From Deinococcales bacterium (GTDB taxonomy: Bacteria > Deinococcota > Deinococci > Deinococcales > JAAFIG01), in assembly GCA_013298595.1 (NCBI GenBank), contig JAAFIG010000019.1, positions 49,450 to 81,002 of the forward strand: a DNA stretch of 31,553 nucleotides, in the 5' to 3' direction. This document shows, piece by piece, positions 3,543-24,788 of this stretch. Position numbers and translations under genes: made by a program. Positions within the stretch are counted from its first letter, which is position 1, and each line of letters opens with the position of its first letter. The notes under the pieces were generated by a model that saw only the letters and a program-made list of their open reading frames with translations, made no database searches and was not told the DNA's origin.

Positions 3543-4936
3543 ATTTAATAGTTATGAAGTTCGGCGGTACACTCATGGGTAGTACTGAAGCCATTAAACA
3601 CAGTGCCAGTTTGGTTGCAGCCAGTGTCAAGAACGGTTCTCGAGTGGTAGTTGTTCCGAGTGCCATGAGTGGTGTAACTGACCAACTGCTTAAAATCGCC
3701 AGCAGTGCTGAACAAGGCGAAATTGATTTTGCCAATGATGAAATTGCGATGATTCAAAAACGTCATCTCGAGACAGCAGCGGCTTTAATGGCTCGAGAAG
3801 ATGGTTTGCATAAACTCGAGGTGATGTTTAATAGTTTATCGCAAACCATCAACGGTATTTATTTGCTGCGTGAACTTTCTAAACGAAGTAAAGATTTAAT
3901 TGTGTCTTTTGGAGAGCGCTTATCTGCGCCACTGATGAGTGCCGCCCTCGAGCAGCATGGTGTTTCTGCTCATGACCTGACTGGCGGACAAGCTGGAATG
4001 CTGACCAACAATAATTTTGGCAATGCCCGTCCGCTTCCAGAAGCCTATAACCGCATTCCTAAACGGCTCGAGGGTTTGTTCCAACAAAATGTTACACCTG
4101 TGGTGACTGGTTTTATTGGCGAAACTGAAAAAGGTGCGATTACCACACTCGGACGTGGTGGTTCGGATTACACAGCCACCATTCTAGGCGCGGCATTAAA
4201 TGCCACCGAAGTTTGGACATGGAAGGACGTGGACGGGGTTATGACCACCGATCCGCGCATTGTGCCAGAAGCGCAGAATCTCGAGCAACTTAGTTACGCC
4301 GAAATCATGGAAATGGCGTATTTTGGCGCGAAAGTTCTGCATCCACTGGCAGTCGTGCCATTGCAAGAAAAAGGCATTCCGCTCCGAGTTAAAAGCGCTG
4401 CCGATCCGAGTTTTGCGGGTACGCTTGTCTCGAGTGAATCACGCCCCCTCAAAAATGGTGTGAAAGCCGTGACGGCTGTCCGAAATGCCAATATCATAGA
4501 CATTGGTGGAGCGGGCATGGTTGGCGCAGCCAACATTGTCAGTCAGATATTTGATGTCCTCGCCGAACTCGATGTCAATGTGATAATGATTAGTCAATCC
4601 TCGAGTATGGCAAATATTTCGATTGTGGTGCAACAAACCGATGGCAAACGGGCTTTAGAAGCCTTACAAAAACAATTCGCCGAATCCGATAGCGTAGGCA
4701 CAATCGAATTCTGGGAAGCAATCAGTGTCATTGCCATAGTTGGCGAAGGAATGCGAGGTGCAAAAGGCGTAGCTGCCAAACTTTTTACGGCTGTTGCCAA
4801 CGAAGGTATTTCCATAGACATGATTTCGCAAGGCTCGAGTGAGTTAAACATTTCTTTGGCAATAGATGACGAACACACGGTGCAAGCGGTGAAAGCCATT
4901 CATAAAGCTTTTGGGTTGGATAAACTCGAGGTGTGA
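3539..4936 (+). CDS. lysC: Aspartate kinase (monofunctional, two ACT domains)
   Basis: Phosphorylates aspartate with ATP, the first step of the lysine/threonine/methionine pathway, and feeds asd located upstream. The 465-residue protein has the kinase motif KFGGTLM (8-14), FGERLSAPLM, and the nucleotide-binding GRGGSDYTATILG. It also has the catalytic-loop region WTWKDVDGVMTTDP. Two C-terminal ACT domains follow, from about residue 315 (GAGMVGAANIVSQIF) and 395 (VGEGMRGAKGVAAKLF), which normally bind the feedback amino acid. No homoserine dehydrogenase domain follows. The gene starts in an ATGA overlap with a GGGAGG ribosome site at 3527-3532. It is the long-type aspartokinase rather than the alpha/beta overlapping type. 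lysC is the general symbol; the feedback class (I, II, III) is not assigned. Confidence 0.93.
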   Translation: MNLIVMKFGGTLMGSTEAIKHSASLVAASVKNGSRVVVVPSAMSGVTDQLLKIASSAEQGEIDFANDEIAMIQKRHLETAAALMAREDGLHKLEVMFNSLSQTINGIYLLRELSKRSKDLIVSFGERLSAPLMSAALEQHGVSAHDLTGGQAGMLTNNNFGNARPLPEAYNRIPKRLEGLFQQNVTPVVTGFIGETEKGAITTLGRGGSDYTATILGAALNATEVWTWKDVDGVMTTDPRIVPEAQNLEQLSYAEIMEMAYFGAKVLHPLAVVPLQEKGIPLRVKSAADPSFAGTLVSSESRPLKNGVKAVTAVRNANIIDIGGAGMVGAANIVSQIFDVLAELDVNVIMISQSSSMANISIVVQQTDGKRALEALQKQFAESDSVGTIEFWEAISVIAIVGEGMRGAKGVAAKLFTAVANEGISIDMISQGSSELNISLAIDDEHTVQAVKAIHKAFGLDKLEV

Positions 4937-19534: not shown

Positions 19535-20266
19535 ATGCCTAAACTTAATCAAATCATCGCAGTCGAAAAAGGTGTCAAAAGCCGTTCCTTCCAAGAATTA
19601 ACCGAAGCCCATCATGCATTGCAAAAACCAACCTTACTTTCTGGCATCTCGAGAACATACCGTCCTAAAGACGAAGAAGGCGAGCAATTACCAGCAGAAT
19701 CTACCAAAGTTCAAGTCAAAGCCGAAGAAGTGGTTCGTGCCACAGCTGGTATTCTGACTCGTTTATTCGATGTCACAGCCAGCAAAGATTGGGCGAATTG
19801 TATTGCCAAAGCCAATGTGGTGATTGAAGGCAAAACTATTTTATCCGATGTGCCGATTTCGTATTTGCTGTTTTTAGAAAAGCAATTAACCGATTTGCAT
19901 ACCTTTATTAAAAAACTACCTGTGTTGGATGCCTCAGAAAGCTGGGTTTTTGATGCCAGTGCCGATTGCTGGGCAACCGAACCTGTGCAGACCTTACGCA
20001 CCAAGAAAATCCCTCGTAACCACGTCAAAGCCGAGGCTACCGAGAAGCACCCAGCCCAAGTCGAAGTGTACTACGAAGATGTGACTGTGGGTTTTTGGCG
20101 TACCTTGAAATTCTCGGGCGCAATGCCAGCTAAGCGTGTTAACGAATTACTTGAGCGAGTTGAGAAATTGCAAACCGCTGTAAAGTTTGCTCGAGAAGAA
20201 GCCAACGCTGTTGAAGTCACCGAGCAAAAATTGGGTGAGAAATTCTTTGAGTATTTACTTGGTTAG
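19535..20266 (+). CDS. Unrecognised cytosolic protein upstream of Y-RNA-like genes
   Basis: 243 residues, no signal peptide or membrane segment. The start has AGGAGA eight bases upstream of ATG 19535. The N-terminus PKLNQIIAVEKGVKSRSFQE then HHALQKPTLLSGISRTYRP is strongly patterned. The centre has VQVKAEEVVRATAGILTRLF and the C-terminal part NELLERVEKLQTAVKFAREE is a probable coiled helix. I believe similar proteins are widespread in bacteria as uncharacterised families, but I cannot name a domain. It ends in a CTCGAG-containing terminator and sits 143 bases before the start of two tRNA-mimic RNAs on the same strand, which may be functional linkage or chance. No catalytic motif is visible. 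Confidence 0.7.
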   Translation: MPKLNQIIAVEKGVKSRSFQELTEAHHALQKPTLLSGISRTYRPKDEEGEQLPAESTKVQVKAEEVVRATAGILTRLFDVTASKDWANCIAKANVVIEGKTILSDVPISYLLFLEKQLTDLHTFIKKLPVLDASESWVFDASADCWATEPVQTLRTKKIPRNHVKAEATEKHPAQVEVYYEDVTVGFWRTLKFSGAMPAKRVNELLERVEKLQTAVKFAREEANAVEVTEQKLGEKFFEYLLG

Positions 20267-20293: not shown

Positions 20294-20335
20294 AATCTCG
20301 AGTGAACAGGATAGGATGTTCACTCGAGATTTCTT
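20294..20335 (+). terminator. Terminator with CTCGAG in both arms
   Basis: AATCTCGAGTGAAC (20294-20307) pairs perfectly with GTTCACTCGAGATT (20318-20331) over 14 bases, followed by TTCTTTC. It closes the unit of the gene ending at 20266. Confidence 0.75.
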
Positions 20336-20373: not shown

Positions 20374-20402
20374 TTGTCAGACTAACCCAGCCCTGTTACA
20401 CT
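20374..20402 (+). promoter_or_regulatory. Strong promoter of the Y-RNA-like locus
   Basis: TTGTCA (20374-20379), a 17-base spacer and TACACT (20397-20402) make a near-ideal vegetative promoter. The predicted start is at about 20409-20411, precisely where the closing stem of the first tRNA-like RNA begins. There is no ORF with a ribosome site downstream, supporting an RNA product. Confidence 0.75.
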
Positions 20403-20410
20403 GCTCGAGA

Positions 20411-20568
20411 AGTGCAAGCTCATGTTGAAGCTGAAGCTCACAGAGATCACGGTACCCAGTGCAGGTTCGAGTCCTGCGACCGCCACCAATGGCGGAATAG
20501 CCCAATGGCAGAGGCATACCGTCCTCGAAACATAATTTCAGATTATCACTTCAAGCTACGCATTCACT
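20411..20568 (+). ncRNA. YrlA-type Y RNA-like, tRNA-mimic RNA 1
   Basis: The order of tRNA parts is permuted. A T arm comes first: GCAGG-TTCGAGT-CCTGC at 20461-20477. Then come GACCGCC (20478-20484) and A-CCA, two cap bases, and GGCGGAA (20491-20497). A D arm follows: GCC/GGC with AATGGCAG-type loop, 20500-20515. The two acceptor strands pair over five bases, GGCGG with CCGCC, with mismatches at the inner two. At the anticodon-stem position TACCGT (20517-20522) pairs with ACGGTA (20449-20454). Further out TTGAAG (20425-20430) pairs with CTTCAA (20549-20554), and AGTG (20411-20414) with CACT (20565-20568), with bulges. Bacterial Y RNAs that bind the Ro60 orthologue Rsr have this plan: a tRNA-like module on a bulged stem formed by the RNA ends. 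No rsr gene is in the window. A permuted tRNA is the alternative. Confidence 0.7.
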
Positions 20569-20573
20569 GCCGA

Positions 20574-20709
20574 ACACCAAGTCAACCGCTCGAGGTCGGC
20601 AATCGTTGGATACCGGTGCATCTCCGGTCTGCTGCTCCACATGCAGCGGTAGTTTAATAGTAAAACACGACGATCTCAGAATGAACCTTTGGCTTAAACG
20701 TGTTGGTGT
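20574..20709 (+). ncRNA. YrlA-type Y RNA-like, tRNA-mimic RNA 2
   Basis: The same permuted plan repeats. A T-arm-like stem-loop ACCGG-TGCATCT-CCGGT (20612-20628) comes first. Then come CTGCTGC (20629-20635), T-CCA, three cap bases, and GCAGCGG (20643-20649). The D arm is GTTT-AATAGTA-AAAC (20652-20666). The acceptor strands pair over all seven positions (one G-U). CGACGAT (20668-20674) pairs with ATCGTTG (20602-20608) over seven bases with one G-U. An outer stem joins ACACCAA (20574-20580) to TTGGTGT (20703-20709), with AGGT/ACCT (20593-20596/20685-20688) between. The T loop departs from the TTCRANN consensus, unlike copy 1. No separate promoter is obvious, so it is likely co-transcribed from 20374 and ended at 20732-20760. 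Pairing of four independent segments makes a chance structure unlikely. Confidence 0.68.
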
Positions 20710-20731
20710 GTGCAAATGGGCAGTAAAAACG

Positions 20732-20764
20732 AGTCGGGGCGATGGACATTCGCCTCGACTTCCT
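20732..20764. terminator. Bidirectional terminator between the RNA locus and hisN-like gene
   Basis: AGTCGGGGCGA (20732-20742) pairs with TCGCCTCGACT (20750-20760), one G-T. The plus strand continues TCCTTATTTT, suiting the end of the RNA transcript. The minus strand continues CGTTTTTA, suiting the end of the phosphatase gene. Confidence 0.75.
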
Positions 20765-21636: not shown

Positions 21637-24015
21637 ATGCGTTTTTTGGGTTTGGTTTGTGGTCTTCTTTTAGCGGCGTGTAGTGGTAATCAAAGCATTC
21701 CTAGTCTGACCTCGAGCACAGGCAATTGGTCTGACCCTGCCACTTGGGGTGGCAAAGTTCCAACATCAGGAACCAACCTCGAGATTCCAGCAGGGCAAGT
21801 GGTAACACTAGACACCAATGCCGTGGTGGGTGGTTTAACTGTTTATGGCACACTAAATTTTGCGCGTAAAGATCTGCAACTCGAGGCGCGTTGGATCATG
21901 GTTGAGGGTAAAGATGCTGCCTTAAAAATTGGGAATTCATTGGAGAGTTTCAAAAACCGTGCCAGTATCACCTTAACAGGCAGCAACGAAACCGAGAACA
22001 TTATGGGCATGGGAACCAAATTCTTAGCTGCCATGAATGGTGGTCGTCTCGAGATTTACGGTGAGCAACGGATGGCTTGGACAAAATTAAATCGGAGTGT
22101 AGCCAAAGGTGCCACCCAACTCGAGCTTGCCGAAACCCCAGATTGGCGTGTTGGTGAAAGTATTGTGCTTGCCTCAAGTGCCTTAGACCCCACCCAAGCC
22201 GAAACTCGAGTGATTACAGCGGTAAATAATAAAACGATTAGCTTCGATCAACCACTCGAGTTTGCTCATTATGGGCAGTTACAAAGCTTTGCAGGGAAAA
22301 CACTGGATGAACGAGCCGAAGTCGGTTTGCTCAGTCGTAACATTGTGATTGAAGGCGATGCTGCCAGCCAAACTAAGCAATTTGGTGGTCATGTCATGGT
22401 CATGGGTGTAACTGGGAGCACTCGAGAAACCAATATTGCTGCTAGCAGCACAGCTAAAATCCAAGGCATTGAATTTCGTCGGCTAGGACAATTTCAGAAA
22501 CTCGGGCGTTACCCGTTGCACTGGCATCGAAATGGCAACTCGAGCAGCAGTTTTGTAGCAGGCTCGAGTTTTCATCAGAATTATCAACGGGGCGTGGTGG
22601 TTCATGCCTCCGATCAGATTCGTATTAGTGAAAATGTTGTTTATGGCAGCGTCGGACATAGTTATATGACCGAGGATCGTTCAGAAATCGGTAATACGTT
22701 CGAGCGTAATTTGGGCATACTGACTAAACCTTTTCCAAAACCCTCGAGTAATGCCGAACAAGCTGCCCAAAACGATGAACAAGCCGCAACTTTTTGGATT
22801 CGTGGTCCGAATAATAAATTTATTGCCAATCATGCCGCTGGTGGTTGGCATTCAGGATTCTGGTTTGATGGTGCTTTAGCCACCAATAACGATTTTGTTT
22901 TCCGCGATAACACCGCCCATTCGTATTTGGTGGGGCGAGGAATCAAAGGGTCTTGTTGCTTTGGCGAAAAAGGTGCATTGTGGATCACACCAGAAAAAGA
23001 TACATACGGCACTTTCCACGGACCATTTGAATTCACCAATACAACACTTTATAAAAACCGTGAAGCTTTCTGGGCATTACCAAAAAGTGGCGATGGCACA
23101 GGAGCTTCCAGCGTAGACCTGAACAACGCCATCCTTGCCGATAATGCCCTCGGACTCTCGAGTCAAGGTTTACGTGACAGCATCATCATTGGACGCAGTG
23201 CCAACACTGATGCAGACCCCGAAGTTGGACGAGCAGGTGTCCAAGAATACGGCAACACCAGCCGACTCGAGAACATCACTTTTGTCAATTTTACCGATGG
23301 AGGCACAGCGTTAGAGACACGAAATTGCTTTAGAGAAGCCCCCAACGTTATCAGCAAAGGGATTCAACTGATTAACGCCGAATTAAACCTGTGTTCAGGC
23401 TCGAGCGACCTCAGTATCCTTGATGATGGCACACTGTCTGGCACAGGACAAATCAGTACTATCACACCAGCTTCAAACGAAAGTGGTTCTCGAGCCATGT
23501 GGACAGCCGATTGTCCACTTAGTGCCAATAAAACCACTCGAGCCTGCCCTGGAAAACTCGAGTACTGGCATTTGTACGTACAAACCGCTGGTGGTACAAC
23601 CCCATCGTTAATTCGTGATGATGGCGTGCAACTCGACGCAAGCGATGTCGAAAGCTACCCGTTTTATTGGACGATGATTCAAGGGCGCATTTATGCCTTA
23701 TCCCAAGATTTAAGTGTCACCAGTGCCATACGTTTACGAGCAGGAATCAAATACAACAATGAAGCCGATGAAAACATGATTCGTACTGGACGAGTGACCG
23801 TGCCAGTCGCAGGCAATTACAGCATCACCCAATGCGATTATGGAGCTTACGATGGTATGACCTGCAAAAACAAAACCACATTACCAAGTGTTGCCAATGC
23901 TGCGGCACTCGAGGGTAGACAAACCCCAGCATACTATTACGATATCAGCAACAAAAAACTGCATATTTGGTTAGTAGCAGGAACAGACACATCAGTCATA
24001 CTCGAGCGCAAGTAA
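21637..24015 (+). CDS. G8-domain lipoprotein with right-handed beta-helix (CEMIP/TMEM2-like)
   Basis: 792 residues. The signal RFLGLVCGLLLAACSG is a lipobox with C15, so the protein is anchored by lipid at the surface. Residues about 28-150 form a G8 domain, beginning NWSDPATWGGKVPTSGTN and LEIPAGQVVTLD with regularly spaced glycines. Residues about 230-620 contain short strand repeats (YPLHWHRNG, GVVVHASDQIRISENVVYG, WHSGFWFDGALATNNDFVF) typical of a parallel beta-helix. The same pair of modules occurs in animal CEMIP and TMEM2, linked to hyaluronan depolymerisation, and in polyductin. Several Cys occur in the C-terminal half. GAGGAGT lies before ATG. Polysaccharide binding or cleavage is inferred, not shown. 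It carries many CTCGAG sites, hence looks resident. Confidence 0.82.
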   Translation: MRFLGLVCGLLLAACSGNQSIPSLTSSTGNWSDPATWGGKVPTSGTNLEIPAGQVVTLDTNAVVGGLTVYGTLNFARKDLQLEARWIMVEGKDAALKIGNSLESFKNRASITLTGSNETENIMGMGTKFLAAMNGGRLEIYGEQRMAWTKLNRSVAKGATQLELAETPDWRVGESIVLASSALDPTQAETRVITAVNNKTISFDQPLEFAHYGQLQSFAGKTLDERAEVGLLSRNIVIEGDAASQTKQFGGHVMVMGVTGSTRETNIAASSTAKIQGIEFRRLGQFQKLGRYPLHWHRNGNSSSSFVAGSSFHQNYQRGVVVHASDQIRISENVVYGSVGHSYMTEDRSEIGNTFERNLGILTKPFPKPSSNAEQAAQNDEQAATFWIRGPNNKFIANHAAGGWHSGFWFDGALATNNDFVFRDNTAHSYLVGRGIKGSCCFGEKGALWITPEKDTYGTFHGPFEFTNTTLYKNREAFWALPKSGDGTGASSVDLNNAILADNALGLSSQGLRDSIIIGRSANTDADPEVGRAGVQEYGNTSRLENITFVNFTDGGTALETRNCFREAPNVISKGIQLINAELNLCSGSSDLSILDDGTLSGTGQISTITPASNESGSRAMWTADCPLSANKTTRACPGKLEYWHLYVQTAGGTTPSLIRDDGVQLDASDVESYPFYWTMIQGRIYALSQDLSVTSAIRLRAGIKYNNEADENMIRTGRVTVPVAGNYSITQCDYGAYDGMTCKNKTTLPSVANAAALEGRQTPAYYYDISNKKLHIWLVAGTDTSVILERK

Positions 24016-24092: not shown

Positions 24093-24788
24093 CTAAATGG
24101 ATTGTGCAAGTCGAAATCCAAGGTCATCCACACGAAAGCTTGGATGACTTTTACGGCGGCATGAGGCACGGCAGCTTCGTGCTGGGTCGCTCCATCCACC
24201 TCCACGGAAAACACGGTACGAACCATAGACAGCGCTGTCATAGATATCCCAACACCATTCCCATACATTACCAATCATGTCGTAGAAACCCCAAGCGTTT
24301 GGTGCTTTGGTACCAACCTTGTGCAATTGTGCCTCCGAGTTTTCAACAAACCAGGCAATATCGTTTAACTCACCATACCGAACGGTATTGTCCCCTGCTT
24401 TACAAGCCAATTCCCACTCGGCTTCTGAAGGCAAGCGAAAACCATTGGCATGCCAATCACACAGTGGTTCACCTGCGGAATCCCACGAATAGCATTCTGC
24501 TAAACCTGCTTTTTTTGATAACAGATTGCAAAAATGTATTGCCTCGAGCCAAGAGATTTCAACGATTGGCTTTTGACTATTTTCAGCATATTCCATCTGG
24601 CTTTGACTAAACAACAAGTATTGCTCTTGTGTGATAGCAAATTTACTTAACCGAAACGAAGGCAGATCAACAGTCCAACGAACGTTACTGCCCTCATCTT
24701 TTAACGTTATTTTGGCAGCAACAACTGGTAGCATCTGTGCGATTATTGTTTGCATAACCGCACCTTGCCGAATTTCTAAGTTTGGCAT
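24093..24788 (-). CDS. SUMF1/formylglycine-generating-enzyme-like protein
   Basis: 231 residues of the sulfatase-modifying-factor fold. FRLSKFAITQEQYLLFSQSQ is the opening. VEISWLEAIHFCNLLSKKAG, NGFRLPSEAEWELACKAG, YDMIGNVWEWCWDIYD and RVFRGGGWSDPARSCRAS-to-LGFRLA are canonical blocks. The cysteine pair that binds copper in true formylglycine-generating enzymes sits just after RVFRGG; here only SCRASC, displaced and oddly spaced, is present. It may therefore be an EgtB/PvdO-like or non-catalytic member. It starts three bases after the cysS stop, so it is co-transcribed; an alternative ATG at 24755 has AAGGTG upstream. No sulfatase or ergothioneine gene is nearby. Confidence 0.8.
   Translation of the reverse strand: MPNLEIRQGAVMQTIIAQMLPVVAAKITLKDEGSNVRWTVDLPSFRLSKFAITQEQYLLFSQSQMEYAENSQKPIVEISWLEAIHFCNLLSKKAGLAECYSWDSAGEPLCDWHANGFRLPSEAEWELACKAGDNTVRYGELNDIAWFVENSEAQLHKVGTKAPNAWGFYDMIGNVWEWCWDIYDSAVYGSYRVFRGGGWSDPARSCRASCRRKSHPSFRVDDLGFRLAQSI

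Follow-up and report, generated by a model that had tools for sequence, protein, structure and literature searches.

The stretch of DNA considered here, called the window in what follows, is 31,553 nucleotides long and comes from a Deinococcales bacterium (assembly GCA_013298595.1, contig JAAFIG010000019.1, positions 49,450 to 81,002 of the forward strand). It contains a gene encoding a protein of the family DUF7873, followed on the same strand by a locus for a dual RNA, that is, an RNA with two modules that resemble tRNA bodies in permuted order. The initial annotation described two blocks permuted 3' to 5' and read them as a tandem of bacterial Y RNAs of the YrlA type. The two blocks are present where it had placed them, and their order is that of a permuted tRNA. 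The features of the locus are as follows (positions are those of the window).

19535–20266, plus strand: gene of DUF7873 (PF25283), 243 amino acids, predicted partner of the RNA (Pfam E-value 9e-118).
20374–20402, plus strand: sigma-70-like promoter TTGTCA-17-TACACT (consensus scan; a consensus match only).
20409–20763, plus strand: predicted single transcript with module 1, module 2 and a 3' hairpin (inferred from promoter, stems and terminator).
20409–20552, plus strand: module 1 with its outer stem, 20409–20414/20547–20552 (GAAGTG/CACTTC), paired in relatives.
20416–20440, plus strand: conserved UNANNN tract with a 6-nt period (opposite strand at 20534–20546).
20450–20521, plus strand: permuted tRNA-like module 1 (acceptor paired 7/7 in 119/130 relatives).
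20450–20454/20517–20521, plus strand: module 1, stem at the anticodon position.
20461–20477 and 20500–20515, plus strand: module 1, T arm and D arm, respectively.
20478–20484/20491–20497, plus strand: module 1, acceptor (3' strand/5' strand), with ACCA at 20485–20488.
20574–20709, plus strand: module 2 with its outer stem, 20574–20580/20703–20709, and inner stem, 20588–20596/20685–20693 (pairing and compensatory changes).
20581–20587, plus strand: module 2 internal loop, 5' side, consensus AUCRA (columns 20581–20583 and 20585 at least 92% conserved).
20602–20674, plus strand: permuted tRNA-like module 2 (acceptor paired 7/7 in 128/132 relatives).
20602–20608/20668–20674, plus strand: module 2, stem at the anticodon position.
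20612–20628 and 20652–20666, plus strand: module 2, T arm and D arm, respectively.
20629–20635/20643–20649, plus strand: module 2, acceptor (3' strand/5' strand), with TCCA at 20636–20639.
20694–20702, plus strand: module 2 internal loop, 3' side, consensus UUAAACG (U20694, A20696, A20697 and G20700 at least 95% conserved).
20731–20761, plus strand: 3' hairpin with the loop ATGGACAT, terminator-like.

In both modules the T arm comes first, followed by the 3' acceptor strand, the cap, the 5' acceptor strand and the D arm. Neither has an anticodon arm: at that point of the tRNA body the chain continues into a longer stem whose internal loops are invariant. A module and its stems together measure about 140 nt, YrlA-type Y RNAs being about 90–150 nt long, while the promoter and terminator suggest a transcript of about 350 nt. 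The locus looks more like a single RNA, composed of the two modules plus a third hairpin, than like a pair of separate genes. Of 129 loci, 125 have a strong hairpin after the RNA, and its loop is GGnYA in 104. The promoter proposed in the initial annotation was found again by the consensus scan, and transcription would be expected to start at about 20409, the first base of the outer stem; only a minority of the relatives have a TANNNT -10 box at the matching, fixed distance. Between the DUF7873 gene and this promoter, a 15-pair hairpin (AATCTCGAGTGAAC...GTTCACTCGAGATT, 20294–20331) is probably the terminator of the protein gene.

The pairing was assessed in an alignment of 132 loci, in which the counting relied on anchor columns and not on pairing. 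The acceptor strands pair at 6.85 of 7 positions on average in module 1 and 6.95 of 7 in module 2, compared to 4.8 and 4.2, respectively, when the two strands are taken from different loci; 67 (module 1) and 87 (module 2) distinct acceptor stems occur in this set. In the window itself, the counts given earlier for the acceptor stems (5 of 7 in the first copy, 7 of 7 in the second) are correct. A linear tRNA spanning the modules, made of the 5' half of module 1 and the 3' half of module 2, was also considered and rejected: the crossed acceptors pair at 4.19 and 4.17 of 7 positions, which is the chance level. In an independent MAFFT alignment of module 2 including its stems (46 rows), 87.2% of the cells are paired, versus 63.7% after shuffling and 39–46% when slid; 35 of the 37 pairs of its helices have changed on both sides, and in 500 shuffles not one of the five measures used was reached. 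The outer stem (93.5% of cells paired) and the inner stem (80.6%) show compensatory change in every pair, and the weakest helix is the stem at the anticodon position (54.5%). The outer stem of module 1 is paired in 86.5% of cells, versus 79.5% shuffled and 35–51% slid. The covariation that the initial annotation had proposed to look for at the acceptor and outer stems is thus found over the relatives. Its outer stem for the second copy (ACACCAA/TTGGTGT) is correct, while for the first copy TTGAAG/CTTCAA has to be replaced by GAAGTG/CACTTC, the pairing supported across relatives. As to the T loops, those of the relatives fit the tRNA consensus well in both copies (TTCRA in most rows), and the TGCATCT loop of the second copy in the window is a local divergence. 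In the window, the folding energy of the RNA region taken whole is unremarkable (z -1.15); it is the covariation over the 132 loci that excludes chance, and not the window alone.

As a separate observation, the palindrome CTCGAG occurs 189 times in the whole window for 3.4 expected, as an over-represented, HIP1-like site; one copy lies inside the inner stem of module 2 (20589–20594), and the related loci L004, L045 and L048 likewise have many copies.

Conservation outside the tRNA-like bodies is highest at letters that are unpaired or do not covary. In the UNANNN tract of module 1, each of the columns A20416, U20420, A20422, U20426, A20428, U20432, U20438 and A20440 is at least 90% identical over the 132 loci, and the opposite strand is conserved as well (A20534, U20538, A20540, U20544). 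When this tract was treated as a duplex (register sum 40960), its covariation did not exceed that of shuffles, and we therefore take it as conserved sequence and not as a helix. Invariant loop columns that do not covary are the pattern expected from a site read in sequence by a protein.

The DUF7873 protein (27 kDa) is assigned to its family with 392.8 bits, for a Pfam gathering cut-off of 27. It has no sequence match in PHROG, NCBIfam, PADLOC or the PDB, no sequence relation to the TROVE family was detected, and it is unmentioned in the literature searched. Its AlphaFold2 model has a mean predicted local distance difference test score of 92.7, and the structural comparisons made with it are not meaningful: the best Foldseek hits, Cas7 chains, have an E-value of 2e-3 and a template modelling score of 0.14, and VIA-align gives Z at most 6.7 (TolC).

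The linkage of this protein to the RNA was examined with two covariance models, R1 (the module) and R2 (full-length module 2). Since both were derived from these loci, their matches to them are built in; the evidence independent of the models comes from the covariation, from co-occurrence across whole genomes and from the copies that are not linked. DUF7873 is present in 3 of the 111 genomes of the order (the source genome G000, G002 and G008) and the RNA pair stands behind all three genes. Homologous double loci are found in G002 (73% identity), G008 and G012; in the last, the RNA lies at a contig end and its upstream side is missing. Judging by sequence, Thermus-like genomes are among the relatives of the source genome. 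G001 has the gene rsr, which encodes the TROVE protein Rsr, and neither DUF7873 nor the RNA pair. More widely, DUF7873 occurs in at least 511 bacterial and at least 324 viral stretches; a recognised module pair follows the gene in 70 of the 80 bacterial and 53 of the 80 viral loci examined, the two module starts being usually 140–160 nt apart, and the R1 search also finds such pairs behind DUF7873 in actinomycete plasmids and phages. Among distant phages, DUF7873 is followed by one or two modules in Klebsiella FBKp24, Rhizobium Y65 and Y1_11 and Gordonia Ziko; the module matches are weak in Vibrio D517 and Pseudanabaena PA-SR01, and R1 reports no module in a Microcoleus phage.

The strictest pairing is seen in Streptomyces: with a cut-off of 55 bits, 50 of 101 genomes match R2, and the identical 50 have DUF7873 (Fisher 5e-30, a value that overstates the number of independent events since the genomes are related). 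All 50 pairs lie on one strand, module 2 starting 143–348 nt past the DUF7873 match; the other 51 genomes have partial R2 matches or none. In two Herpetosiphon genomes and a Chloroflexota metagenome-assembled genome (MAG), DUF7873 has no adjoining RNA and the module pair is found elsewhere in the genome. We also note that false tRNA calls (suppressor, Ser, Phe or Leu, from annotation or ARAGORN) lie over RNA modules in L244 (2518–2597), in L085, L086, L101–L103 and L105 (near 3753–3845) and in L098 (2023–2111).

The strict pairing of gene and RNA suggests that the two work as one particle. We consider it fairly probable that the locus makes a two-part ribonucleoprotein (RNP), in which DUF7873 is associated with an RNA of about 350 nt presenting two tRNA mimics; the analysis establishes how the RNA folds, that it goes with DUF7873 and that it is separate from rsr, and we infer its transcription, the binding and the function. 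DUF7873 would bind conserved loops of the stems, namely the UNANNN tract in module 1 and the AUCRA/UUAAACG loop in module 2, and would take the place that Rsr has in the Y RNP, while the two tRNA-like arms would be held out to a tRNA-recognising enzyme, which, as we propose, they would most likely tether or occupy. In favour of this proposal, the stem of known YrlA RNAs tethers Rsr and their tRNA-like domain tethers PNPase, and these RNAs are substrates of tRNA-modifying enzymes (PMC8394870). In phages, the unit perhaps shields translation from a tRNA-directed nuclease, an idea which comes from its frequent position inside islands of tRNA genes. Chances appear about even that this is a new class of RNP, with DUF7873 on a dual tRNA-mimic RNA, possibly in several copies along the UNANNN tract, that does not depend on Ro60 or PNPase and that phages and bacteria exchange as a means of acting on tRNA metabolism. 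Several points weigh against the proposed particle. DUF7873 is not basic overall (isoelectric point 6.6) and has no confident fold match, and its sequence therefore gives no support to RNA binding. If DUF7873 were an enzyme acting on the RNA, or if the RNA regulated the DUF7873 gene, the two would likewise be adjacent and inherited together. Last, the present data do not separate a decoy from a tether.

One alternative is that the RNA is an ordinary YrlA tandem binding an Rsr encoded elsewhere, DUF7873 being an accessory of the Ro RNP. The permuted order is indeed that of RF02553, with a T arm, a closed acceptor stem and a D arm, so that the tRNA mimicry and the stem-on-module design proposed in the initial annotation stand, and the rsr (TROVE) gene that it suggested to look for exists in the source genome, as in the other genomes of the order that have the RNA pair. 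However, this gene is on another contig than the RNA, which is linked to DUF7873. In Streptomyces, rsr is slightly commoner in genomes with DUF7873 (34/50 versus 26/51), which is not significant (p = 0.11), and 16 of the 50 lack it; it is also absent from 19 of 30 other DUF7873-containing genomes (matches over the cut-off being counted, 11 of 30 have it), and none of the nine DUF7873 records that were searched in full, six of them phages, contains it. Conversely, G001 has rsr without the unit. The YrlA model gives 13.7 bits for module 1 and no match for module 2, versus 48.7 and 45 bits for the rsr-adjacent RNAs of G012, which are themselves below the gathering threshold of RF02553 (69 bits); the Rfam YrlA search of the whole source genome gave no match, and Rfam at gathering threshold reports only two ordinary tRNAs in the window. 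As to the RNAs that neighbour rsr in Streptomyces, they match R2 only at about positions 36–99, which is the tRNA-like module; many such partial matches lie about 1.2 kb from rsr (for example G156:C15, G173:C5 and G161:C5), and the rsr-linked RNAs therefore share the module and not the stems. The dual RNA has a YrlA-like architecture but is separate from rsr, and we regard an ordinary Y RNA tandem as unlikely.

A decoy is a more serious possibility, although less likely than not: the RNA would be a sponge for tRNA-cleaving or tRNA-modifying toxins and for defence nucleases that read the elbow and the acceptor stem, and DUF7873 would stabilise it, an explanation which overlaps with the last step of the RNP that we propose. 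Phage units lie in or beside tRNA islands, about half of the Streptomyces genomes have the unit, and there is a precedent, since phages escape tRNA-targeting defences by means of their own tRNAs, according to two reports (PMC10264068, PMC11555353). Of the 132 loci, 54 retain the CCA behind the acceptor strand of module 1 and 48 behind that of module 2, but the CCA sits within a closed cap and many loci have lost it; the RNA has no anticodon arm, so that anticodon nucleases could not cut it, and most bacterial loci have no tRNA genes nearby. The missing anticodon arm also bears on the idea that the modules are circularly permuted tRNA genes, of the kind that exists in algae and archaea (PMC3978253), maturing to working tRNAs through a circular intermediate. 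The order of the halves and the intact acceptor, T and D arms would fit, but rejoined halves would have no anticodon arm, the ends run into covarying outer and inner stems, almost every locus has its modules as a pair, CCA is missing from many caps, and no tRNA is called over the modules in the window; we find this idea hardly credible. Likewise, neither Rfam nor ARAGORN detects a transfer-messenger RNA (tmRNA) in the window. Regulation of the DUF7873 gene in cis by the RNA would explain why the RNA usually lies directly behind the gene. However, it is downstream, with a promoter-like site of its own here, and in Herpetosiphon and the Chloroflexota MAG it is retained in trans, a long way from the gene, which makes cis regulation very improbable.

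The surroundings of rsr deserve a few remarks of their own. Tandem permuted YrlA-like RNAs lie directly upstream of rsr in G012 and G008 (L048, 180–940; L049, 6600–6950), and in one of those of G012 a GAAA loop closes the acceptor stem. The two systems coexist in an Actinosynnema genome, where one module lies at about 0.8 kb from rsr and a dual RNA lies beside DUF7873 (G115:C36:96228, G115:C44:235938). In the family to which L045 (4355–12931, which is G000:C20), L046 and L047 belong, rsr stands at the end of an array of 21–27 tRNA genes, where several tRNAs have the T loop GTGCRA instead of GTTCRA. What had appeared in the source genome as an array of modules beside rsr is mostly an ordinary tRNA array, and where R1 matches of about 30–46 bits in tRNA arrays extend over two neighbouring ordinary tRNAs, we did not accept them as permuted modules. 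Between tRNA-Ser and rsr, on the minus strand (L045, 6330–6465), a sequence reads as an unpermuted tRNA (acceptor GGGGCGG/CCGCTCC, ACCA) in which a long Y-like insert replaces the anticodon arm. Farther along the window, a 792-amino-acid protein with G8 and CEMIP beta-helix domains (21637–24015) adjoins a sulfatase-modifying-factor-like protein (24093–24788).

The unit of DUF7873 and dual RNA has no Rfam family and no paper in the literature searched, which did not cover the main YrlA papers, so that an earlier description is possible. It suggests that the design of Y RNA, in which a protein-binding stem carries a scrambled tRNA body, is not restricted to Ro60, and that a second, unrelated protein may own a double version of it, across several bacterial phyla and many phages. 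Since both parts are small, as a rule lie next to each other and are found in culturable Streptomyces, Herpetosiphon and phages, the function of a bacterial tRNA mimic can be put to a direct test outside the biology of Ro60.

Among known systems, YrlA (RF02553) is the most similar, since there too a long stem with internal loops carries a permuted tRNA-like module that mimics the D, T and acceptor arms; the dual RNA differs by its two modules, its other stem loops, its third, 3' hairpin and its score below the Rfam threshold, and it is linked to DUF7873 instead of rsr and common in phages that lack rsr. The proposed logic, a protein on the stem and a tRNA-like arm offered to an enzyme, is that of RYPER, the complex of Rsr, Y RNA and PNPase of Deinococcus radiodurans, with DUF7873 in place of Rsr. 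Like the circularly permuted tRNA genes of algae and archaea, the dual RNA has the 3' half before the 5' half; unlike them, it lacks the anticodon arm, its stems continue outward and its modules are paired. The 3' acceptor piece also precedes the 5' piece in permuted two-piece tmRNA, but the dual RNA has no tmRNA match, a tRNA-like D arm and two modules.
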